From assembly GCA_029881255.1 (NCBI GenBank), contig JAOUMY010000005.1, positions 130,479 to 194,478 on the forward strand: a stretch of DNA of 64,000 nt, written 5' to 3'. Shown here piece by piece: positions 14,654 through 49,016 of the stretch; the stretch's first letter is position 1, and each line of letters begins with the position of its first letter. A program made the translations under genes and the position numbers. Under the pieces are notes generated by a model. That model saw nothing but the letters and a program-made list of their open reading frames with translations, was not told the DNA's origin and did no database searches. The DNA is from Gammaproteobacteria bacterium. Lineage in GTDB: Bacteria; Pseudomonadota; Gammaproteobacteria; S012-40.

Positions 14654-14728
14654 ATGAGTCGAACACGACTCCTATTCGGCTCATATTTAACTTGTTTGTG
14701 AGCCGATTAGAGACTATATTCGGCTCAT
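14654..14728 (+). promoter_or_regulatory. Duplicated palindromic operator overlapping the fic start codon
   Basis: Two 31-bp palindromic units lie 44 bp apart. Unit 1 is ATGAGTCGAACA (14654-14665), a 7-nt spacer and TATTCGGCTCAT (14673-14684). Unit 2 is GTGAGCCGATTA (14698-14709), a 7-nt spacer and TATTCGGCTCAT (14717-14728). The last half-site contains the AT of the fic ATG and leaves no room for a normal Shine-Dalgarno. This arrangement suggests autoregulation, possibly by the C-terminal winged helix of the Fic protein itself. The repeats are seen directly; the binding protein is inferred. Confidence 0.7.
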
Positions 14729-15848
14729 GAAATACAACTGGCAACAAGCGAATTGGACCGACTTTCGGTATGACCTCACAGGTCTCCAAGAGACCTTAGT
14801 CATGCTGGCCGAGAAATTCGGACATGTTAGTGGTCTGGTAAAAGGTCTCTCTGAAAATTTACAGACTGATACCCTTGTTAACCTGGTGCTTGCGGAAGCG
14901 ATAAAGACTTCAGAAATCGAGGGCGAGTTGCTCAGTCGGCAAGATGTCATGTCATCGATTCGCAACCAACTAGGCTTGAACAAGCCGACTGAACATGTGC
15001 GGGATAAACGAGCATCGGGAATCGCCGAACTCATGCTAGATGTTCGAAATACTTATGCTGCCCCACTTACGAAAGAAAAGCTTTTTCAGTGGCACACCAT
15101 GCTTTTCGAACAAACACCCACGCAAATCGCTATTGGAGATTGGCGCTCACATGAGGAACCTATGCAGGTTATTTCGGGTCCGGTTGGAAAAACTACAATC
15201 CACTTCGAGGCTCCAGCGTCGAGTCGTGTTCCTGATGAAATGGAATCCTTCATTAACTGGTTTAATCGGAGCGCGCCTGGCGGAGAAAATCATATAAAAT
15301 TTCCCGTCATTCGATCCGCAATCGCTCATCTTTACTTCGAGAGCATACATCCATTCGAAGATGGTAACGGTCGTATTGGACGTGCAATTGCAGAAAAAAC
15401 GCTTTCACAAGGCCTCGGATACCCCGTCCTCTTAAGCCTATCCAGCACCATTGAGAAAAATAAAAAACAATATTACTCAGCGTTAGAAACAGCTCAGAAA
15501 TCACACGAGATTACGCCGTGGCTAAAGTATTTCGCCAACCTCACTCTGGACGCACAAACAGACTCGGAAGTCCAAATCGAATTCATTCTCAAGAAATCTA
15601 AATTTTTCGACCGGTTTGGTTCCGTGCTCAATGAGCGCCAAACCAAAGTGATCAAGCGTATGCTTGATGAAGGGCCGAAAGGATTCGAGGGAGGCATGTC
15701 TGCAAAGAAATATATCGCAATCACAAGCACCTCTAAAGCCACTGCGACTCGCGACCTACAATACCTCATCGAAAAGGGTGTGTTTAAACAAACAGGCGGT
15801 GGTAGAAGTACGCGCTACGAAGTCAATTTAGAACAAATTACTTTTTAG
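14727..15848 (+). CDS. Fic family protein with N-terminal DUF4172-like region and C-terminal winged helix
   Basis: The product is 373 residues. The N-terminal region (YNWQQANWTDFRYD) resembles DUF4172. Near residues 55-62, TSEIEGE fits the class II inhibitory motif (S/T)xxxE(G/N), which blocks ATP binding in Fic proteins. The catalytic loop HPFEDGNGRIGR is complete near residues 210-221, so AMP transfer to a protein target is expected when inhibition is relieved. Residues about 305-365 form a winged helix (STSKATATRDLQYLIEKG). The start codon overlaps a duplicated operator. The target protein is unknown. No separate antitoxin gene is adjacent. Confidence 0.92.
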   Translation: MKYNWQQANWTDFRYDLTGLQETLVMLAEKFGHVSGLVKGLSENLQTDTLVNLVLAEAIKTSEIEGELLSRQDVMSSIRNQLGLNKPTEHVRDKRASGIAELMLDVRNTYAAPLTKEKLFQWHTMLFEQTPTQIAIGDWRSHEEPMQVISGPVGKTTIHFEAPASSRVPDEMESFINWFNRSAPGGENHIKFPVIRSAIAHLYFESIHPFEDGNGRIGRAIAEKTLSQGLGYPVLLSLSSTIEKNKKQYYSALETAQKSHEITPWLKYFANLTLDAQTDSEVQIEFILKKSKFFDRFGSVLNERQTKVIKRMLDEGPKGFEGGMSAKKYIAITSTSKATATRDLQYLIEKGVFKQTGGGRSTRYEVNLEQITF

Positions 15849-16960: not shown

Positions 16961-19351
16961 TTATTTCTTGAACGTGATAAACAAGGCCGATGTCCAGATC
17001 TTGGCATCGTCAACCTGACGTGCGACAACATAGACCGGGCGATGACCGTGTGGGCCGTTTTTCGGTGCGATTTCAAAATTTCCGGTGACTTCACGTGGTG
17101 CCTTCGAGTCACTCATGCGCTCCATCGCAAGAAACATTTCGACGCCGGGTAAATCCTTTTTCAGTCGCGATGCTTCGAGCAATTCTTCGCCGGTAAACTC
17201 CCAGGAAAACGTTGGGCAATGCACAAATGGATTCCCTTTTAAAGGATCACCGACTTTTACATAGCCATCAATCGTGCCTTCGATTTTGATTTTCGCCGTC
17301 GCTAAATGCGAAACGTCCATCTCGATGGCATCGACATCGCCATAGGTATCACTCTTGAATCCGATCGTCGTTGTTGTTTCGCGCCAGCAGGTTTCTTCTT
17401 TGTGCTCAAAGCCCAGGCCTACAAACTCATTGATAACGGCGTTCGTGATGGTGATCTTGCCTTTCCAGGCGGCCCAACGATAGCGATCCTTAATACGTGC
17501 ACCGCCCCAGCGGAAACGAATCTTACGCTCGGAATAGCCCAGTTCCTTCTGCAGATCGCGCCGCCAAAACTCGCCATCCTGATCGTAGGCAACGATTTCA
17601 TCCCAACCGGCGTCGCCAAGAAAGCGATAGTCCACCTGCGCGGCTCCCTGGTGATCAAACTCATCACCCATAATGTGCTTACCACACGAAATCAATCCGA
17701 AGGTACGCTCGCCGGTCGACGCGAAGGTATGGCGTTGGCGTAAGGCGATGCCGATAGCCTTGCGCGATAGTTCTGGAGAGATGACTCCGGAGATACCGCC
17801 CTTGGTACCAAATACCGCTGTACCCGGCACACCGCCACCGCAACGACCACGGTGTTCATCACCTGCCATGCTTGCACCGATTTTGTAGCCGCGTTGCATG
17901 GCTTCCTGATACAGCCAGCCAAAGTGACCCCAGGACGATCCGATCTCAATCAATTTTTCCAGTTCGGGATGATGCCAGTCCAGAATACAACGACGCCCAC
18001 CGACGTGAGGCGTTAACAAGTGACCTTCAGGATCGCTCGCATAGGCGGCCCATAATTCTTCTAGCGGCCAGGCACCGGGAATGGCTTCTGTTGTGCCGGA
18101 ATCTTCATTCCAGTCAACCGAGCGCACGTGGGTGCCATCTTTCAAAAATGGAAACTCAGGTTCGCCATCGTGCAGGAAGATGACGTTATGGTCACCACCC
18201 GCGCAGGAACTGCCGCACCACTCTGTTCCGGGATAAGCAACGAATTCACCGTCTTTACTGATTTCGCGTATCAGCTCTACTGTTTTGTTCCAGCGTTCGT
18301 GGGTGATGTTAAAGTCATTATGCGCAAACGCCAGCACGTCCAACCCGGTTACATCACGCCCGTAATTCAGGTTATACGTTGTAGAATTGGTTCCAATCGT
18401 ATCATCTGAATGCACATGCAAGTCGGTGTAATAGATTCTAGGAAACTCGAGTTCTTTATCGACCGTAACATAGAATGTGTTTGGCTGGACCGCGGGATGA
18501 TCCGGCATGCTGGCATTGATTACCAATTCACCCGGCTTGTCCGTTGGTATATCTTCCAGCAGATGAACCGACCAACCTTCTTCCGGCAACCTGATCTCGC
18601 TCTCATAGCAAGGGACGCCATCAAGCGTAGCGTTGATACGAATCCTGTCAGCGCGATTCCAGCAGGTATTACCCCATTCATCTTCAGCGCGAATTCGCAA
18701 TGGCACTTTCTCGCCCCGCTTCACCAGACGCGAACCGGCCCATTGTAGTAATGCAGGGCGACCCGGTTTGATATTGATCGTTAGATCAGGATTTACCGCT
18801 GCGAAACGTGAGGTGCCAAGTGGGTCCACATAGCAGCGGAACTTGAAGAATTCTTCTGTAAACGTTTGTACACGGGTGCCCGGACCGCCGAAACGTCGGT
18901 CTCCCATGCGGATAACGATTTGATCACCAGCCTTTAAATAGCCGTCATAGGTATCAACAATAATGGCTTTCTGAAAAGGACGCTCGTGGCCTTTCTGATC
19001 AAAGCGTACGGAAAGCTTTTGCACAGACGCTGGGCTTTGTCCTTCAAGCGTAGGCGATGCATGGTATTCAGCGGATACATAGTTGGCGCCGCTTGGGTGA
19101 GTTGTTTGGAAAAGTTCCCAGTCTGAATAGAAGCGAAATGTGGCCTTAAACCAGGAGCCGTCTGCCATGCCCGATTGCCCAAGCGTGTATACAATAATGA
19201 TTTCCTGCCACGAACCGGCATCCATTTCTTCGATATTACAGGTGACTGAACCAAGAAATGGCATGTCCTTGGTCTTTTGGTACAGACCTGCGGGTGCGAA
19301 ATATGAATCGCCCAGTTTTTCTTTTAACTCGGCGTCCGTCATTTTTTTCAT
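16961..19351 (-). CDS. PHP-domain protein, DUF3604-like
   Basis: The product is 796 residues. AAGGGG lies 8 nt upstream of the ATG at 19351. Residues 1 to about 310 are beta-rich with two repeats about proteins acting on polymers or lipids (no firm family). From about 312 the PHP metal site begins with YYTDLHVHSDDTIG, followed by VLAFAHNDFN, VAYPGTEWCG, HNVIFLH and MAGDEHRGRCGGG. These His/Asp/Glu clusters resemble a trinuclear phosphoesterase or hydrolase site, and the layout resembles DUF3604 proteins. There is no signal peptide, so it is probably cytoplasmic. It is the last gene of a unit with tctC, tctB and tctA, so it may process the imported organic acid. The substrate is unknown. Confidence 0.75.
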   Translation of the reverse strand: MKKMTDAELKEKLGDSYFAPAGLYQKTKDMPFLGSVTCNIEEMDAGSWQEIIIVYTLGQSGMADGSWFKATFRFYSDWELFQTTHPSGANYVSAEYHASPTLEGQSPASVQKLSVRFDQKGHERPFQKAIIVDTYDGYLKAGDQIVIRMGDRRFGGPGTRVQTFTEEFFKFRCYVDPLGTSRFAAVNPDLTINIKPGRPALLQWAGSRLVKRGEKVPLRIRAEDEWGNTCWNRADRIRINATLDGVPCYESEIRLPEEGWSVHLLEDIPTDKPGELVINASMPDHPAVQPNTFYVTVDKELEFPRIYYTDLHVHSDDTIGTNSTTYNLNYGRDVTGLDVLAFAHNDFNITHERWNKTVELIREISKDGEFVAYPGTEWCGSSCAGGDHNVIFLHDGEPEFPFLKDGTHVRSVDWNEDSGTTEAIPGAWPLEELWAAYASDPEGHLLTPHVGGRRCILDWHHPELEKLIEIGSSWGHFGWLYQEAMQRGYKIGASMAGDEHRGRCGGGVPGTAVFGTKGGISGVISPELSRKAIGIALRQRHTFASTGERTFGLISCGKHIMGDEFDHQGAAQVDYRFLGDAGWDEIVAYDQDGEFWRRDLQKELGYSERKIRFRWGGARIKDRYRWAAWKGKITITNAVINEFVGLGFEHKEETCWRETTTTIGFKSDTYGDVDAIEMDVSHLATAKIKIEGTIDGYVKVGDPLKGNPFVHCPTFSWEFTGEELLEASRLKKDLPGVEMFLAMERMSDSKAPREVTGNFEIAPKNGPHGHRPVYVVARQVDDAKIWTSALFITFKK

Positions 19352-24783: not shown

Positions 24784-25470
24784 TTAAGCCATGCCGCAGA
24801 CGAGGTTGCCAGGAACAGCAACGTCGATACGTTTTGGCTTTGGTAGGTTAAGGTTGTCCATGATCGCCGTGAACGCTGCTTTAGGCTTGCTGTTCGCGAG
24901 ACGTGGATTGTTGAGTTTCTCTTCGCCGATAGTCGACTCAGTGAAACCATCGTAGTCGTGACCAGGATAGACAACTGTGTCATCCGGATAAGCAAACAAT
25001 TTGTCAGTGATCGAGTGATACAGCGTTTCAGAATTTCCCTGTTGGAAATCAGTACGGCCACAGGCACGTATCAGCAGTGCATCACCTGTGAACAATGCGC
25101 CTTCGATAGCGTAAGTAACGTCACCATTGGTGTGTCCTGGAGTATGCAAAACTTTGATAGTCTGCTTGCCCAGTTTGATTTCCTGGTCGTTCACCAGTTG
25201 CATATCGGCACACTTGGCACCACCGTCGGTATGTACGCCAACTTTACAGCCCAGCTTTTCACGCAATTGACCTGCGCCAGTCACGTGGTCAGCATGTACG
25301 TGTGTTTCCAATGCATACTTCAGCGTCAGACCAAGGTCTTGTACGTATTTCACATCGCGCTCAACGCGCTCTTTCACTGAATCTATAATTGCTGCTTCTT
25401 TTGTTGCTTCGTCCCACAACAAGTAAGTATAAGTCCAGGTATCCTGATCAAAGAGTTGTCTTACTTTCAT
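24784..25470 (-). CDS. Persulfide dioxygenase (ETHE1-like, metallo-beta-lactamase fold)
   Basis: The product is 228 residues. The mononuclear iron site is visible as THVHADHVTGAG (about 56-67), LHTPGHTNGDVTY (about 109-121), FTGDALLIRACGRTDFQQG (about 128-146) and YPGHDYDGF (about 168). The CGRTDFQQG run is typical of ETHE1-type sulfur dioxygenases. It oxidises glutathione persulfide to sulfite and glutathione in the cytoplasm. AGGAG precedes its ATG. It is the second gene after rhodanese-DUF2892, under a sigma-54 promoter at 26076-26091. Confidence 0.94.
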   Translation of the reverse strand: MKVRQLFDQDTWTYTYLLWDEATKEAAIIDSVKERVERDVKYVQDLGLTLKYALETHVHADHVTGAGQLREKLGCKVGVHTDGGAKCADMQLVNDQEIKLGKQTIKVLHTPGHTNGDVTYAIEGALFTGDALLIRACGRTDFQQGNSETLYHSITDKLFAYPDDTVVYPGHDYDGFTESTIGEEKLNNPRLANSKPKAAFTAIMDNLNLPKPKRIDVAVPGNLVCGMA

Positions 25471-25496: not shown

Positions 25497-26030
25497 TTAA
25501 TCACATGAACCGGAAGCGCGACAAAATTCGTCTTTCAATTTTGGATCGGCTTTGTTCCACGGCGCTTTTGCCAACGCACCTGCAACTGCGCAATTACCCG
25601 TCAGCCCGGCATAAAACAAACCTGCGCCGAAGGCGATGGTTGCCGTGGAAAACCACGGATTGACAAATGCTCCCAGTGTGGCGAAGACCATGAACATTAC
25701 GCCCATTACCAATTGCATTTGACGCATCAAAGGCAGAGGTGCCTTGCCAGCCTTGCGCACTGGATTACCTTTTTCTATCCACGACATGATCCCGCCGGGA
25801 TAAACGCTATACGTATGTGCATCATCAAACCCAAGACCTTTGGCCTGTTCAAATGCCTGCTGTGCACGCATGCCGCTACGACACATGAACACGATCTTGC
25901 GATCAGTGAGTTGATTCAGCACACCCGGTGCTACCGTAGTAAAAGCAGAAAGCGGAACATTAATGGAGTTGTGTACATACTCCAGTTCATATTCATCACG
26001 CTCCCGCACATCAATAATGACTTCACCCAT
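25497..26030 (-). CDS. Rhodanese-DUF2892 membrane sulfurtransferase
   Basis: The product is 177 residues. Residues 1 to about 98 are a rhodanese domain with the active-site loop CRSGMR near residue 50. Residues about 100-160 form a DUF2892 region with two membrane helices (VMGVMFMVFATLGAFV and IAFGAGLFYAGLTG). The layout resembles E. coli YgaP. The extreme C-terminus is cysteine-bearing (FCRASGSCD). It likely carries sulfane sulfur at the membrane and feeds the persulfide dioxygenase encoded 26 nt downstream. A GGAG Shine-Dalgarno lies 8 nt upstream of the ATG. Confidence 0.92.
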   Translation of the reverse strand: MGEVIIDVRERDEYELEYVHNSINVPLSAFTTVAPGVLNQLTDRKIVFMCRSGMRAQQAFEQAKGLGFDDAHTYSVYPGGIMSWIEKGNPVRKAGKAPLPLMRQMQLVMGVMFMVFATLGAFVNPWFSTATIAFGAGLFYAGLTGNCAVAGALAKAPWNKADPKLKDEFCRASGSCD

Positions 26031-26075: not shown

Positions 26076-26091
26076 TGCTATTGTCGTGCCA
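26076..26091 (-). promoter_or_regulatory. Sigma-54 promoter of the rhodanese-DUF2892/dioxygenase unit
   Basis: The minus strand reads TGGCACGACAATAGCA, close to the sigma-54 consensus TGGCACG-N4-TTGC(A/T), with GG and GC separated by 10 bp. The expected transcript start is about 26064, 34 nt before the ATG at 26030. Confidence 0.8.
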
Positions 26092-26238: not shown

Positions 26239-26274
26239 ATGTTGCGTCGTATGTTGCAACATATATGACAACAT
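26239..26274. promoter_or_regulatory. Activator site shared by two divergent sigma-54 promoters
   Basis: A perfect palindrome ATGTTGCAACAT lies at 26251-26262. Outer half-sites ATGTTG (26239-26244) and CAACAT (26269-26274) share exactly the same centre. It stands about 165 bp from the minus-strand promoter and about 65 bp from the plus-strand promoter. It is probably bound by the Fis-type HTH of the regulator at 27621-28577. Confidence 0.75.
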
Positions 26275-26321: not shown

Positions 26322-26337
26322 TGGCATATCAACTGCT
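26322..26337 (+). promoter_or_regulatory. Sigma-54 promoter of the carbonic-anhydrase-like gene
   Basis: TGGCATATCAACTGCT has the sigma-54 GG-N10-GC spacing. The expected start is about 26349, 29 nt before the ATG at 26378. Confidence 0.72.
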
Positions 26338-26377: not shown

Positions 26378-27265
26378 ATGAATGCGGAAACTTTTAGTCA
26401 GGCAAATTGGACGACGATCGCTGAAATCGAAAACAGTGGACAGATCTCGTGTATCGATGGTCGTCATAGTCATTGTGTGGTTGGCGCTCCTGGTGGAAAC
26501 ATCGGCGAGATGATTTTAATGTTGTCAGCGACAGAAAAATTGGGGAAATTCAATTTTTCATCTCACCAACTCGAGCAGCTGCTGGCCAATTACGCGAGTA
26601 GTTTTGGACGCTTTTATATGCATACCGATACGCACGCGGTAAAACGTCTATTAAGTCGTATCGAAAAAGATCCCGAGTTGCAGGACTGGGCCAGATCATT
26701 TAATGGCAATACCCGAAAATTTTTCGACGCGCTCATTTTGATCGACAAAGAAATGTCGGACAAGCTTCTGCCTTTTCTATTGATGCCCGAACATATTGGA
26801 TGCGGCCACCTTAAACTGCTTATTCAACAGCCACAAAAATATCAGGTGCGTAAATCCCTGGTACTTCAGACGCTAACCAGTTTTTTCCAACTCATGTGGC
26901 TAGGCAATCGTCGCATGCACTGGGAAATGCTTGAAGGTGATCACGAGGAAAAACAAGTCATCGTTATCGACTCCGAGCTGGAACTCGAAGACAACTCGGC
27001 GATTCCCTTTGCGTGTAACCATGATAATGAGCAACGCTTTGTGGCACACTCTGCCGCACGTCGCTTCTTTCATCGTCGTGACGCAGGGTTTATCAATAAA
27101 TTTGTTTCCTATATGGGAGAAACAGCGATTAATGCTGATCTGCTTATAGGTGAAATCGCAAGACTCGCAGAACTGCAAATGGGTAATACCCTCAATGCAC
27201 TGGCAAAAGATCTGCCGGTGGTCCGCGTAGTCGTTTCAGCAGAATCTTCTAACCAATCGAGGTGA
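26378..27265 (+). CDS. Uncharacterised protein with a carbonic-anhydrase-like zinc motif
   Basis: The product is 295 residues with no signal peptide or membrane helix. Residues 25-29 read C-I-D-G-R, the Cys-x-Asp-x-Arg zinc/dyad motif of beta-type carbonic anhydrases, followed by APGGNIGEM. A later segment, PEHIGCGHLKLL, contains His139-x-x-Cys142. Another cluster is HTDTH at 82-86. These residues could bind one zinc as in beta, CsoSCA or LCIB-like enzymes, but I cannot place it in a named family. It is the first gene of a sigma-54 unit with a rhodanese, opposite the persulfide dioxygenase unit. A hydratase, or another thiol/zinc chemistry on CO2 or a sulfur species, is possible. Confidence 0.6.
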   Translation: MNAETFSQANWTTIAEIENSGQISCIDGRHSHCVVGAPGGNIGEMILMLSATEKLGKFNFSSHQLEQLLANYASSFGRFYMHTDTHAVKRLLSRIEKDPELQDWARSFNGNTRKFFDALILIDKEMSDKLLPFLLMPEHIGCGHLKLLIQQPQKYQVRKSLVLQTLTSFFQLMWLGNRRMHWEMLEGDHEEKQVIVIDSELELEDNSAIPFACNHDNEQRFVAHSAARRFFHRRDAGFINKFVSYMGETAINADLLIGEIARLAELQMGNTLNALAKDLPVVRVVVSAESSNQSR

Positions 27266-27268
27266 GTT

Positions 27269-27619
27269 ATGGCCTATACCGAAAAGTTTCAACAAATGGC
27301 AGACGCGGCGCGCGCCCGTGTGACGGAAGTCGCTCCTGAGGATGTCGATGCACTGATGTCTGCGGGCGCGATTGCACTGGATATACGCGATAAGGAAGAA
27401 CACGATGCGGGACATATTCCTGGTTCCAAGAATATCAGCCGCGGCAAACTGGAGATGAATGTCGAGGGTGAGATTCCAAACCTGGATGCAACAGTCATTT
27501 GCTATTGCAATGCTTATAATCGTGGCGCCTTATCCGCTGCAACGCTGAAAGACATGGGTTATGTCAATGCGCGTTATATTGCCGGTGGACTTAACGCCTA
27601 CAAGGCATTACAGGCCTAA
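27269..27619 (+). CDS. Rhodanese-like sulfurtransferase
   Basis: The product is 116 residues, a single rhodanese domain. ALDIRDKEEHDAGHIPGSKN is the typical N-terminal half, and the active-site loop is CNAYNRGA near residue 75, with Cys as the persulfide carrier. A helix of about 20 residues precedes the domain. It starts 3 nt after the upstream gene and has a GAGGTGAG Shine-Dalgarno inside that gene's end. The stop is one base from the stop of the convergent sigma-54 regulator. It probably transfers sulfane sulfur in the same pathway as the dioxygenase. Confidence 0.92.
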   Translation: MAYTEKFQQMADAARARVTEVAPEDVDALMSAGAIALDIRDKEEHDAGHIPGSKNISRGKLEMNVEGEIPNLDATVICYCNAYNRGALSAATLKDMGYVNARYIAGGLNAYKALQA

Positions 27620-27620
27620 A

Positions 27621-28577
27621 TTAAATCAATTGATGCTCACGCATTTTGCGCCAAAGAGTTGCCCGGCTCATGCCGAGCAACTCAGCGGCCTTACCCTTGC
27701 GTCCATTGGCATCACGCAAGGCGAGTTGGATTTGTTGTCGTTCTGACATTCCACCACCGCCACGCTCTCGCGTAATTTCATTTTCACCACGTAACTCGGG
27801 TGGTAAATCTTCCAGTAGCAATGTTTCTCCCACGCCGATGGCGAATGCGCCTTCCAGTGCATTACGCAATTCTCGAATATTACCCGGCCATTGATAGGCA
27901 ATCATTGCCTCATAAGCGGGTTGCGCAATACCTGTCACGAAGCGAAAACCCTGCTTGTTAAATTCTTCGATGAATTGCCAGGTGAGTGCCTCGACATCAC
28001 CTTTGCGTTCGCGCAATGGAGGTAGAAATAATTTTACTACGCGCAGACGATACATAAGGTCTTCTCGAAAACGACCTTTCTCTACTTCTTCGCGCAGGGC
28101 GCGATGGGTTGCGGAGATCACGCGCACATCAGTTGAACGGGTTTGAGTAGCGCCTACCGGAGTAAACACACGCTCTTGCAACACGCGTAGCAAACGCGCT
28201 TGCACATCGATAGACATCTCACCGATTTCATCGAGAAACAAGGTGCCGTGGTTGGCCAGTTCGAACAAACCTTTTTTATCTGTAATCGCGCCGGTAAACG
28301 CGCCCTTTACATGGCCGAACAATTCCGAAGCCAGCAAATCCGAACCGAGAGTGGCGCAGTTTACCGCCTGCCACGGTCCTTTGGTTCGCGGGCTGATATT
28401 GTGCACCGCGCGCGCCGCCAGCTCTTTACCGGTACCGGTTTCCCCGCGTATCAGGACGCTGGTATCGGTACGCGCCACCCGTTCGATCAGTTTGAAAAAA
28501 TCGAGCATGCACGGCGCAACAGTCACGATATTCTGAAACACGGTGATCTTGATATCTGGTCGTTTGATGATATTCAT
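27621..28577 (-). CDS. Sigma-54-dependent activator, FisR/PspF-like
   Basis: The product is 318 residues from the ATG at 28577. An upstream in-frame start at 28640 lies inside the operator palindromes and is less likely. The AAA+ domain has Walker A GETGTGKE (about 45-52), the sigma-54 contact loop GAFTGA (about 92), Walker B LFLDEIGEM and an arginine-finger region. The C-terminus is a Fis-type HTH (KAAELLGMSRATLWRKMRE). Only about 22 residues precede the AAA+ core, so no large sensory domain exists. Cys23 and one Cys near 74 are candidates for thiol sensing. FisR regulators that respond to sulfane sulfur are known beside persulfide dioxygenase genes. Confidence 0.9.
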   Translation of the reverse strand: MNIIKRPDIKITVFQNIVTVAPCMLDFFKLIERVARTDTSVLIRGETGTGKELAARAVHNISPRTKGPWQAVNCATLGSDLLASELFGHVKGAFTGAITDKKGLFELANHGTLFLDEIGEMSIDVQARLLRVLQERVFTPVGATQTRSTDVRVISATHRALREEVEKGRFREDLMYRLRVVKLFLPPLRERKGDVEALTWQFIEEFNKQGFRFVTGIAQPAYEAMIAYQWPGNIRELRNALEGAFAIGVGETLLLEDLPPELRGENEITRERGGGGMSERQQIQLALRDANGRKGKAAELLGMSRATLWRKMREHQLI

Positions 28578-28618
28578 GGCCTGCTTCCTGGGTGATGTTA
28601 ATAACCAGTCTAGCAGAT

Positions 28619-28640
28619 ACGTTGCAACGTGTTGCAACAC
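28619..28640. promoter_or_regulatory. Tandem activator palindromes between the regulator and sulP
   Basis: ACGTTGCAACGT (28619-28630) and GTGTTGCAACAC (28629-28640) overlap. Their GTTGCAAC cores are 10 bp apart, one helical turn, so both face the same side of the DNA. The same core occurs at 26253-26260. The site lies about 95 bp upstream of the sulP sigma-54 promoter and 42 nt upstream of the regulator start, so it may also control the regulator. Confidence 0.78.
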
Positions 28641-28778: not shown

Positions 28779-30485
28779 ATGAACGCGCGACTCAAGCAAT
28801 TCTTTCCAGCCATGAACTGGCTGATGAATTACCGCAAGGAAAATCTCAAAGGCGATATCTCCGCGGGTCTTACCGTCGGCGTGATGTTAGTGCCACAGGG
28901 AATGGCCTATGCCATGCTCGCTGGCCTGCCCCCCATCATCGGTCTCTACGCCTCAATTATTCCAGTCATTGTTTACGCATTGCTCGGCACTTCCAATCAA
29001 CTGGCAGTCGGCCCGGTCGCGATTGTGTCACTAATGACAGCTGCGGGTGTTGGCGCACTAGCCAACGGCAGCACGGAAGCCTATATCGCCTACGCGGTGT
29101 TGTTATCACTCATGGTCGGCGTGATGCAACTTACGCTCGGTGTTGGACGCTTCGGCTTTCTGGTGAATTTTCTTTCGCACCCAGTCATCAGCGGATTTAC
29201 CAGTGCCGCCGCCTTGATCATCGGTTTCAGCCAATTAAAGCACTTGCTCGGCGTGAACATTCCGCGCAGTCATCACATTCATGAGATTCTCATGAATGCG
29301 TTTGATCAGATTAGCAATATTGAAATCACGACGTTCTCAATAGGCATTGCCAGTGTTGCCCTGCTAATGTGGCTGAAAAAGATCAAGCCCATGTTTCCAA
29401 GCGCGTTACTCGTTGTTGTATTGAGTACTCTAGTGGTCTGGTTCTTTGAATTGAACAAGTCTGGCGTGAAGATTGTTGGTGATGTACCTGCAGGCTTGCC
29501 GTCTTTGTCACTACCAACTTTTGAGTGGAGTGTTGTTTCACAACTACTACCCACAGCGATTGCCATCACCATGGTCGGTTTCATGGAATCAATTTCGGTT
29601 GCCAAGGCGTTTGCACGACGCAATCGTTATGATGTTAATCCTAACCAGGAACTGATCGCACTTGGCGCTGCCAATATTGCCGGTAGCTTTTTCAAAGCCT
29701 ATCCGGTAACCGGTGGTTTTTCTCGTACAGCTGTCAACGGGCAAGCCGGTGCAAACACGCCCTTAGCATCGCTAATTACAGCGGCGTTGATAGCCATTGT
29801 ATTGCTGTTCCTGACACCGCTGTTCTATTTCCTGCCTAAAGCCGTACTGGCAGCGATTATCATGACGGCGGTATTTGGTCTGGTGGATATCAAAGAAGTT
29901 AAACATCTTTACCACGTCAAACGTTCTGATTTGGCGCTGTTGGTTGTCACCTTCTTTGCTACGCTAACCATGGGAATTGAGACAGGCATATTAACAGGCG
30001 TGGGAGTGTCTTTACTGTGGGTCATCATCCGTACAACTCGCCCGCATGTTGCCGAACTCGGTCAAATGCCGGACTCAGATGCATACCGCAATATTGCGCG
30101 TCACCCTGAGGCGAAAACAAGTGACGGCTTACTGGTGTTGCGTGTCGATGCCCAGTTCTATTTTGGCAATGCGACTTTCCTGAAAGATACGGTGAAGCGC
30201 TATGTTGCTGAGGCGACTAAACCGCTCAAAGCAATCGTTATCGAGGCTGCCAGTATCAATCAGCTGGATTCCTCCGCCGACTCGACTTTGCATGAACTTG
30301 TAGACGAACTACGCACCCAAGGCATTGAGCTCTACTTTGCCAACGTCAAAGGACCGGTAATGGATGTAATGCATCGTTCGGCGTTGGATGAGAAACTAGG
30401 CCGCGATCATTTCTTCGCGAGTCTGTCTAATGCCATCGACAGCATACGGAAAAGTCTAAACACAAGGACCGTTTCTTATTCCTAA
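28779..30485 (+). CDS. SulP family anion transporter with C-terminal STAS domain
   Basis: The product is 568 residues. The SulP membrane core spans about 25-420 and begins GDISAGLTVGVMLVPQGMAYAM, the family signature, followed by GLPPIIGLYASIIPVIVYAL. A STAS domain occupies about 440-560, starting near VLRVDAQFYFGNATFL. SulP proteins carry sulfate, bicarbonate or other anions. A sigma-54 promoter and the shared GTTGCAAC sites place it under the sulfur regulator. It could export sulfate or sulfite made by persulfide oxidation, or import bicarbonate. AGAGGTG precedes its ATG. A strong terminator follows. Confidence 0.93.
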   Translation: MNARLKQFFPAMNWLMNYRKENLKGDISAGLTVGVMLVPQGMAYAMLAGLPPIIGLYASIIPVIVYALLGTSNQLAVGPVAIVSLMTAAGVGALANGSTEAYIAYAVLLSLMVGVMQLTLGVGRFGFLVNFLSHPVISGFTSAAALIIGFSQLKHLLGVNIPRSHHIHEILMNAFDQISNIEITTFSIGIASVALLMWLKKIKPMFPSALLVVVLSTLVVWFFELNKSGVKIVGDVPAGLPSLSLPTFEWSVVSQLLPTAIAITMVGFMESISVAKAFARRNRYDVNPNQELIALGAANIAGSFFKAYPVTGGFSRTAVNGQAGANTPLASLITAALIAIVLLFLTPLFYFLPKAVLAAIIMTAVFGLVDIKEVKHLYHVKRSDLALLVVTFFATLTMGIETGILTGVGVSLLWVIIRTTRPHVAELGQMPDSDAYRNIARHPEAKTSDGLLVLRVDAQFYFGNATFLKDTVKRYVAEATKPLKAIVIEAASINQLDSSADSTLHELVDELRTQGIELYFANVKGPVMDVMHRSALDEKLGRDHFFASLSNAIDSIRKSLNTRTVSYS

Positions 30486-42434: not shown

Positions 42435-43283
42435 ATGTATACAACGATAGTTGAAGCAGAGGTATTAGCAAGTCATTTGGACAATCCCGAATGGGTAATC
42501 ATTGATTGTCGCTACGATCTCGGTAATGTTGAGGCCGGACGCCAAGCATATAATGTTGATCACATACCCAATGCCCACTACGCCCACCTCGATGAAGATT
42601 TATCATCGCCGATAGGCCCGACCACCGGGCGACATCCACTACCCGATCCTGAATTACTGGCGACACGCTTTAGTGCGTGGGGTATTACTAACGATGTGCA
42701 AGTAATCGTGTATGACGGCGGTCCAGGTGCATTCGCCGCACGCTTATGGTGGTTGTTGAAATGGACGGGACACGACAAGGTTGCCTTGCTCAACGGCGGA
42801 TATGCGGCCTGGCAAACGTCGGGATATCCTTGCAACGCTGAAACACCACAGACATCCTCGACCACATTCACGCTCAAGCTCAATCCGGATTTATTAGTCT
42901 ACGCAGACCTGGTTGATCAAGTCAGACTGGATGAAAATTTTTGCATCGTCGATGCGCGTGCACCAGAACGCTTCCGCGGCGATATCGAACCCCTGGATAA
43001 GGTCGCCGGTCACATCACCGGCGCAAAAAATTCATCATGGGAAAACAATATAAACAACACTCGTCGTTTTAAATCAGAAAGCGAACTGCGACAACTTTTT
43101 TCACAGACTATCGGCGATGTCAGACCCGATCATGTGATACACAGTTGCGGCTCTGGTGTGACAGCATGCCACAACGTATTGGCCATGGAAATTGCCGGAC
43201 TCGCTGGCTCAAAACTCTATGCGGGATCATGGAGTGAATGGATTACCGTACCGGGAAGAGCCATCTCAAAAGGGAACGATTAG
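42435..43283 (+). CDS. 3-mercaptopyruvate sulfurtransferase (two rhodanese domains)
   Basis: The product is 282 residues with tandem rhodanese domains at about 5-130 and 150-275. The C-terminal active loop is CGSGVTAC near residue 238, the form found in mercaptopyruvate sulfurtransferases such as SseA rather than the CRKGVT loop of thiosulfate rhodanese. Linker motif DGGPGAFAARLWWLLKWTG is typical. It transfers sulfur from mercaptopyruvate to thiols, producing persulfides. It is cotranscribed with the Tas-like gene. It lies outside the sigma-54 sulfur locus but could supply the same persulfide pool. Confidence 0.92.
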   Translation: MYTTIVEAEVLASHLDNPEWVIIDCRYDLGNVEAGRQAYNVDHIPNAHYAHLDEDLSSPIGPTTGRHPLPDPELLATRFSAWGITNDVQVIVYDGGPGAFAARLWWLLKWTGHDKVALLNGGYAAWQTSGYPCNAETPQTSSTTFTLKLNPDLLVYADLVDQVRLDENFCIVDARAPERFRGDIEPLDKVAGHITGAKNSSWENNINNTRRFKSESELRQLFSQTIGDVRPDHVIHSCGSGVTACHNVLAMEIAGLAGSKLYAGSWSEWITVPGRAISKGND

Positions 43284-47459: not shown

Positions 47460-49016
47460 ATGAAAAAGCGTCAGCAAAAAACTGTTTTGCTTCTGTCCAT
47501 GCTTGCCGCACTAAGTGGCGGCTGCTTTCATGCGCAAGACGATGAACACGTCATGGCGAAAGCCAAATACCATGTTTACGCTGTAGACCACAGTGGCTAC
47601 ATCAATATTTATGGCGACGATGGCGAAGTCTATGTAGGACACCTAGCATCTATACAACCGAAGAATGCTAACAACGAAGCTCTCGGCCTGGGCGAAGTAC
47701 ATTTCAACAAAGGCAAGGCCTTTGTCATCGTGCAATCGAATATGACCGACAGTAGCGGCACCGTCGTTGGTGGCGGCGTTATCGTCGTTGACGTTGCAAC
47801 GCAAAAAGTGGAACACACTATTCCATTTGCATCGAATGAAACAGCAAACATCACACGCCTGGTCCACTCCTACCCGGATCCTAATGGAAACTATCTATGG
47901 ATTAATAATGATGGACCGTCCGGCAATGCGGATGCAGATTCAGTATTCCGTTTTAACTGGAATCTGGATGACGCCGATGACACTGACGGCGACAAATACC
48001 TCGACGTCACCGAGATTGCAACAGGTAACGGACACAAGAAAGGCGCCTTCGCCTTTAACGACAGCAACATCGCAAACAGCGTCACCGTACCGTTGATGTT
48101 TGCTTCACATAATCTCAGCGATCAGTCAGTTTCTTTGATCAACAATGATCCGGAAAGCCAGGATTTTCTGAACGTCACAACGATAGACTTTGGACCCTAT
48201 GTCAATGGCGATACCAGTTTGAGTAATACGCCGCACGGCCTTGAGTATTCACCGCTAAGCGGCAAATTTTATATCGGTATTACACCTGGCCAGGACATGG
48301 GAGTCGCGGTTATTGACGCCAATAATCTGCCCGCGGATATGGCAGCCGTGCGCGCGGGCAGTATTATGGCTGGTAGCGATGTTAGCGCCAATCAGGTACC
48401 GGCAGGTGGTTACATCCACACCTCTATGGATCACAAGTTCCTGTACATGGTCGGTAAGAAAGATGGAAAAGGCTATCTATCTGTCATCGACGCCACCAAT
48501 GATACTGTTGTTGATGTCATCGACTATGGCAATGTCTCTGCCAGCAGCTTTGTTTTCGCCCACGGCGAAATGGATCACGGAGACACGACTATGCACATTA
48601 ATAAGGTGTATGTCGGCGCATCTGTTGTAACAACTAACGGCGCTGTCGATACTACCTGGGCACAAAATGTTATCAAGGTAATTGAGATTGATCCGGCGAC
48701 GGGTGGGCAAAAGGCCGGCACCGAAGTCAAATCGATCACTACCGATATCGGGAATGGTACGGCTCATCGCAACGGTAAGGGCACTCCTGATGGAATGCAT
48801 GTTTATATGCCTAACGGCGGCGGAAATTGCGAAGACCACGCGACGATGGACGCAGACTGTTCGACAATTTCCGTTATCGAAACCATGGGTGACAAGGTAA
48901 TTACCAAGATCAAGACGCAAGGGCATATGCCGGGTTCTATGGGTATCGTCGATGTCTCTGATCTTACGCTGATGTTTACCGTGGGCGACCACGATCAAAC
49001 AGCTCACACGCATTGA
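47460..49016 (+). CDS. Beta-propeller lipoprotein (YVTN-like)
   Basis: The product is 518 residues. The signal ends in a lipobox MLAALSGGCF (Cys22). The mature protein is built of repeating strands with YVTN/cytochrome-D1-like blades: KFYIGITPG, KFLYMVGKKDGKGYLSVIDA and TISVIETMGDKVITKI. Aspartate-rich DADDTDGDKYLDV near residue 170 looks like a calcium site. His-rich spots (HGEMDHGD, GDHDQTAHTH at the end) suggest metal binding. It is probably anchored at the outer membrane. Between DUF4266 and DUF3570 genes it is likely part of one envelope complex. Function is unknown. Confidence 0.75.
   Translation: MKKRQQKTVLLLSMLAALSGGCFHAQDDEHVMAKAKYHVYAVDHSGYINIYGDDGEVYVGHLASIQPKNANNEALGLGEVHFNKGKAFVIVQSNMTDSSGTVVGGGVIVVDVATQKVEHTIPFASNETANITRLVHSYPDPNGNYLWINNDGPSGNADADSVFRFNWNLDDADDTDGDKYLDVTEIATGNGHKKGAFAFNDSNIANSVTVPLMFASHNLSDQSVSLINNDPESQDFLNVTTIDFGPYVNGDTSLSNTPHGLEYSPLSGKFYIGITPGQDMGVAVIDANNLPADMAAVRAGSIMAGSDVSANQVPAGGYIHTSMDHKFLYMVGKKDGKGYLSVIDATNDTVVDVIDYGNVSASSFVFAHGEMDHGDTTMHINKVYVGASVVTTNGAVDTTWAQNVIKVIEIDPATGGQKAGTEVKSITTDIGNGTAHRNGKGTPDGMHVYMPNGGGNCEDHATMDADCSTISVIETMGDKVITKIKTQGHMPGSMGIVDVSDLTLMFTVGDHDQTAHTH

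Follow-up and report, generated by a model that had tools for sequence, protein, structure and literature searches.

We analyzed a 64,000-nucleotide stretch of a Gammaproteobacteria bacterium genome (assembly GCA_029881255.1, contig JAOUMY010000005.1, positions 130,479 to 194,478), referred to below as the window, in which an open reading frame (ORF) at 26378..27265 encodes a protein of 295 amino acids (aa). Our results point to this protein probably being a bacterial metalloenzyme with the fold of the zeta-class (CDCA-type) carbonic anhydrases (CAs), partnered with a rhodanese and an anion transporter. A preliminary description, made from the DNA letters alone, had already placed Cys25, Asp27, Arg29, His139 and Cys142 in this ORF, and both the ORF and these positions proved correct. 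The gene, its motifs and the gene that follows it are:

26378..27265, + strand: zeta-type carbonic-anhydrase-like protein, 295 aa (ORF, CDCA1 fold match with Z 10.5, family alignment)
26450..26464, + strand: C25-I-D27-G-R29 motif, putative first metal ligand and Asp-Arg dyad, equivalent to CVDGR of CDCA1 (C, D, G and R invariant in 22 sequences)
26621..26629, + strand: H82-T-D84, putative second metal ligand, equivalent to VHGD of CDCA1 (H82 and D84 invariant in 22)
26636..26785, + strand: insert of ~50 residues between His82 and Cys142, seen in the alignments and absent from CDCA1, where 9 residues separate the His from the Cys
26798..26809, + strand: G141-C142-G-H144, putative third metal ligand, equivalent to LGCG of CDCA1 (invariant in 22)
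26936..26950, + strand: G187-x-H189-x-E191 motif, corresponding to GSHTE in CDCA1 and to GxHNE in the PF18484 proteins of bacteria
27269..27619, + strand: single-domain rhodanese with a candidate active-site Cys (CYCNAYNR), 3 bp past the stop of the zeta-type gene (PF00581, E 2e-18)

The 295-aa protein belongs to an unnamed family, absent by name from standard databases. It has no matching family in Pfam or NCBIfam at E<=1, does not match the beta-class Pfam model PF00484, and gave nothing meaningful in a sequence search of the PDB, in agreement with the earlier failure to match it to a family. The gene is present as a single copy within the host genome. Scanning a species-genome collection retrieved three relatives, all from Myxococcota, and a profile search of that phylum gave matches in 20 of 195 genomes, with one further paralogue found in a genome already searched. 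The alignment on which the following counts are based comprises the window protein and 21 distinct intact Myxococcota homologues (22 sequences, broken or partial copies having been removed), which share 26-33% identity with the window protein. The family was found in one of 369 genomes of the window's class and, using the 22-sequence profile, in one of 398 genomes of its phylum, in both cases the window's own, and searches of plasmids and of viral contigs gave no match to it. Broken Myxococcota copies are L027 (with an internal TGA, CVDDR and the second Cys changed to Gly), L028/L031 and L029/L032; family matches in genomes G522 and G544 are split, and L006 is a partial match (E 9e-4).

Cys25, Asp27, Gly28, Arg29, His82, Asp84 and Gly141-Cys142-Gly-His144, as well as Arg158, Trp174, Gly187, His189 and Glu191, are invariant in all 22 aligned sequences. 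The presence of Cys25, Asp27, Arg29 and Cys142 is, therefore, not due to chance. His139, however, which had been proposed as a ligand within His139-x-x-Cys142, is not conserved, being replaced by Phe, Ser, Ala or Thr in 8 of the 22 (L009, L015-L020, L030). The ligand types first proposed thus hold for Cys25-x-Asp27-x-Arg29 and Cys142 but not for His139, while the invariant His82-x-Asp84 and His144 had been missed. As Cys25, His82 and Cys142 are invariant whereas His139 varies, residue conservation makes Cys25/His82/Cys142 the most likely metal ligands.

This ligand set, the motif order and the fold are shared with CDCA1 of Thalassiosira weissflogii (PF18484; PDB 3bob, 3boh, 3uk8, 7bez). The CDCA1 repeats contain CVDGR, VHGD, LGCG (with its Cys 10 positions past the His) and GSHTE or GSHxE; in repeat 2, we take the corresponding residues to be C263/D265/R267/H315/C325, a numbering that agrees with the CDCA1 letters. 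Collinear with these motifs, the window protein presents CIDGR, MHTD, IGCG and GDHEE, such that two Cys and one His are found together with CxDxR in the CDCA1 order and context. According to PMC4413181, the zeta-class metal is indeed bound by two cysteines and one histidine. The proteins differ in that the window protein is a single domain and CDCA1 consists of three repeats, and in that the window family is linked to rhodanese and carries the 50-residue insert.

Pfam-CDCA (PF18484) proteins are also present in bacteria, although one review places zeta-CAs only in diatoms and coccoliths (PMC9570166) and another only in diatom species (PMC4413181). We found such proteins in 11 of 61 genomes of family f176 in the window's class (L033, L035-L044). 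Another PF18484 match, L034 (E 1.6e-6), sits in an amidohydrolase-like ORF and was judged a false hit. The bacterial PF18484 proteins share ICVDGR, VHGD, GCGAC and a later HNE with the window family, yet differ from it in that a rhodanese domain is not seen in their ORFs, in having no long insert and in the weakness of the profile similarity. Among the 1877 ORFs of the examined loci, the ordered pattern C[VI]DGR, HxD, GCG, GxHxE occurs only in the window family and in these proteins.

The predicted fold provides the other main line of evidence. AlphaFold2 was run with a shallow alignment of the window protein and three relatives, used for both models. The window protein model (predicted local distance difference test, pLDDT, 76.6; predicted template modelling score, pTM, 0.81) gave CDCA1 in all of the top three Foldseek rows (best E 5.9e-3, probability 1.00; next E 0.44), and VIA-align superposed it on five CDCA1 entries with Z of 9.9-10.5 over 173-179 residues at a root-mean-square deviation of 3.4-3.7 (next Z 2.7). 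When a Corallococcus domain was placed first in the alignment, the resulting model (pLDDT 82.5) again matched CDCA1 only (Foldseek probability 0.99; VIA-align Z 9.9-10.5, next 3.2). CDCA1 is thus the sole clear match for two predicted models, at 18-23% identity in the structural alignment. The preliminary description had guessed at a carbonic anhydrase, a guess against which an unrelated fold would have spoken; the comparison matched a carbonic anhydrase, and a metal site of the CA type is likewise supported, although the class indicated is zeta rather than beta, CsoSCA or LCIB.

An enzyme of one of the latter three classes, with Cys25, His139 and Cys142 as ligands, as first envisaged, is accordingly very improbable. 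CxDxR and HxxC do look like beta-class motifs, and beta-CA chains appear low in the fold lists (8thm with Z 2.1-2.3; 1ekj with Foldseek probability 0.07). This faint signal would, however, be explained if, as stated in PMC4413181, one CDCA1 repeat mimics a beta-CA dimer, and HxxC is not conserved across the 22 homologues, with the CDCA1 match ahead by a wide margin. For CsoSCA and LCIB there was likewise no Pfam match, and although neither structure is among the fold matches listed, this does not rule out either class.

In 21 of 21 intact Myxococcota homologues, a rhodanese domain lies N-terminally in the same ORF (called by Pfam on three; for the others, the call relies on shared sequence features and on blastp against the window rhodanese). 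This fusion, together with the position of the rhodanese as the very next ORF in the window, constitutes strong evidence that the rhodanese and the zeta-type protein act together. As the rhodanese active-site Cys, retained in the window, is replaced by Ser in 12 of the 21, sulfur transfer is not the universal task of the family.

The recurrent neighbour in Myxococcota is a bestrophin gene: 10 of the 21 loci have one directly adjacent in the same orientation (upstream in nine, downstream in one; identified by Pfam on three and by tblastn for the remainder). The adjacent bestrophins are diverse (32-79% identity), and as some of the genomes are closely related, the adjacencies should not be considered ten independent events. 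Bestrophins are described in PMC6708349 as anion channels, some highly permeable to HCO3-, that serve the algal CO2-concentrating mechanism. The host genome of the window carries a RuBisCO, assigned to form I because its sequence resembles that form, along with CbbR and other cbb-type genes. L009, L010 and L024 possess lipoprotein-like signal sequences at the N-terminus, ahead of the rhodanese, suggestive of an exported form; a bestrophin was not found alongside these three within the locus stretches examined.

A comparable combination is known from algal CO2 delivery, which involves a bestrophin HCO3- channel, CAH3 and RBMP2, a non-catalytic rhodanese protein (PMC6708349, PMC13345187). There too, a rhodanese domain lacking the catalytic Cys operates in a single system with a bestrophin and a carbonic anhydrase. 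The algal system is, however, eukaryotic, employs another carbonic anhydrase class and consists of separate proteins, and the parallel probably reflects convergence.

The surroundings of the zeta-type gene and its rhodanese in the window are as follows:

24784..25470, - strand: metallo-beta-lactamase-fold protein, by resemblance an ETHE1-type persulfide dioxygenase (PF00753; best NCBIfam match sulfur transferase/dioxygenase Blh, below its cut-off)
25497..26030, - strand: rhodanese with YgaP-like membrane segment, divergent (PF00581; PF11127 slightly below its cut-off)
26077..26091, - strand: weak sigma-54-like promoter, 1 mismatch, upstream of the membrane rhodanese/dioxygenase
26252..26261, no strand: palindrome TGTTGCAACA (exact copy) within the divergent promoter region, where an activator might bind
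26322..26336, + strand: weak sigma-54-like promoter with 2 mismatches, preceding the zeta-type gene
27621..28640, - strand: sigma-54-dependent activator without N-terminal sensor domain (PF00158 E 6e-67, HTH_8)
28630..28639, no strand: second TGTTGCAACA, adjoining CGTTGCAACG, between the regulator and SulP
28779..30485, + strand: SulP-family anion transporter with STAS domain (PF00916, TIGR00815)

The neighbours (two rhodaneses, the ETHE1-type dioxygenase, the sigma-54 activator and SulP) favor the earlier placement of the gene inside a sulfur regulon, to which the shared palindrome adds weakly. Exact TGTTGCAACA is found twice in the 64 kb, as compared to 0.18 expected copies, with one of 100 shuffles reaching two, and both copies fall in the two regulatory intergenic regions. 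The CGTTGCAACG-TGTTGCAACA pair lies at the 5' end of the activator gene and may be a self-control site. A whole-genome search with the tandem palindrome pattern indicated no further regulon members. The sigma-54-like matches in the window (85 vs 70 expected) scarcely exceed chance and, being too common, are not counted as evidence. The proposed bicarbonate handling gains independent support from the Myxococcota bestrophins and the host RuBisCO. The link to SulP was not strengthened and is one of proximity only, with an opposite-strand regulator gene in between. Felce and Saier reportedly described SulP-carbonic anhydrase fusions, in which the anion transporter is fused to beta-class domains; the idea of a transporter plus a carbonic anhydrase is common to both, but the window gene is separate and of the zeta type.

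Taken together, these data suggest a module that links CO2/bicarbonate handling with sulfur metabolism. Cys25, His82 and Cys142 would coordinate a Zn or Cd ion, the Asp27-Arg29 pair would organize the metal-bound water, and the enzyme would interconvert CO2 and HCO3-, working with the rhodanese that is fused to it in myxobacteria and encoded by the next gene in the window. Its anion transporter partner would be bestrophin in many myxobacteria and possibly SulP in the window. In the RuBisCO-bearing host, the gene may be switched on with the persulfide-oxidation genes, and CO2/HCO3- supply or pH buffering would therefore track sulfur oxidation. Catalysis and metal binding are here inferred from the invariant residues and the fold of the predicted models.

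This assignment has several weaknesses that need to be considered. The Foldseek E-values fail 1e-3, both models were built on one four-sequence alignment and, as they share it, are not fully independent, and the CxDxR loop (residues 25-35) has a pLDDT below 50, such that the metal-site geometry is not seen in the model. The Pfam CDCA model PF18484 matches no family member at E<=10 and had no match in the window's own genome. It is for this reason that we use the term 'zeta-type' and speak of a sister family rather than of a PF18484 member, the insert between His82 and Cys142 probably concealing the family from this model. Unspliced profile-profile comparison with CDCA1 and bacterial PF18484 proteins was also insignificant (probability 2.5-6%); local profile searches break at the insert. 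With the insert spliced out, 0-2 and 5-25 of 20,000 shuffles scored at least as high as CDCA1 against the family profile for two of three splice choices, while the third was weak (55-772 of 20,000 as high), and this test, being post hoc and set up after the motifs were seen, serves as supporting evidence only. Finally, the host genome already has a Can-type beta-CA (PF00484, contig C11), a SulP gene was not found near any homologue within the locus stretches examined, and sulfur-gene neighbours alone do not call for a carbonic anhydrase.

The large insert and the low-confidence active-site loop could also suit a zeta-type fold that is not a carbonic anhydrase but serves in metal binding or sensing, or in thiol exchange with the rhodanese, and the additional conserved polar residues His144, Arg158, His189 and Glu191 might serve another reaction. 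Nonetheless, all 22 sequences retain the full set of ligands together with the Asp-Arg dyad, and His189 and Glu191 have CDCA1 counterparts, as expected for the same active site under selection. We consider such a role quite unlikely.

The chief rival to CO2 hydration is hydrolysis of CS2 or COS at the same metal site, yielding CO2 and H2S, with the sulfide feeding the adjoining rhodanese and persulfide dioxygenase. It ranks as such because a diatom zeta-CA reportedly hydrolyses CS2 (a title cited in PMC9570166 and PMC12163698) and because the setting here is sulfur-related, with rhodaneses and a dioxygenase as window neighbours and a candidate catalytic Cys in the local rhodanese; beta-class COS hydrolases are also known (PMC5745022, PMC8209446). 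However, what recurs beside the gene in Myxococcota is bestrophin and not sulfur-oxidation genes, the rhodanese Cys is so often Ser, and no CS2- or COS-specific residue was identified, leaving this activity unlikely, though worth keeping in mind. A full CS2/COS-to-sulfite path made up of the zeta enzyme, the rhodanese and the persulfide dioxygenase, with the same enzyme turning the released CO2 into bicarbonate, is a rather more speculative proposal.

Carbonic anhydrase of the zeta type thus remains our preferred reading. In our partial coverage of the literature, no earlier description of a distinct bacterial zeta-type branch with rhodanese was found. The text of a survey of carbonic anhydrases in microbes from 2026 (PMC13098186) does not contain Myxococcota, rhodanese or PF18484, and BLAST searches in that survey for the classes delta, zeta, eta and theta returned less than 2% of the number for alpha, beta or gamma. 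If true, a distinct bacterial branch, consistently joined to rhodanese and often to bestrophin, would widen the zeta class and bear on the origin of the diatom enzyme. It would also offer a tractable means of examining whether rhodanese domains that lack the catalytic Cys have a role in CO2 metabolism, a proposal made for the algal pyrenoid (PMC13345187), and in the window's organism, inorganic carbon handling would be tied to persulfide oxidation.

Elsewhere in the window, long ORFs at 16961-19351 (796 aa) and 47460-49016 (518 aa) have no Pfam match at E<=1e-5, a Fic/DUF4172 protein is encoded at 14727-15848, and a two-domain rhodanese, a further sulfurtransferase, lies at 42435-43283.
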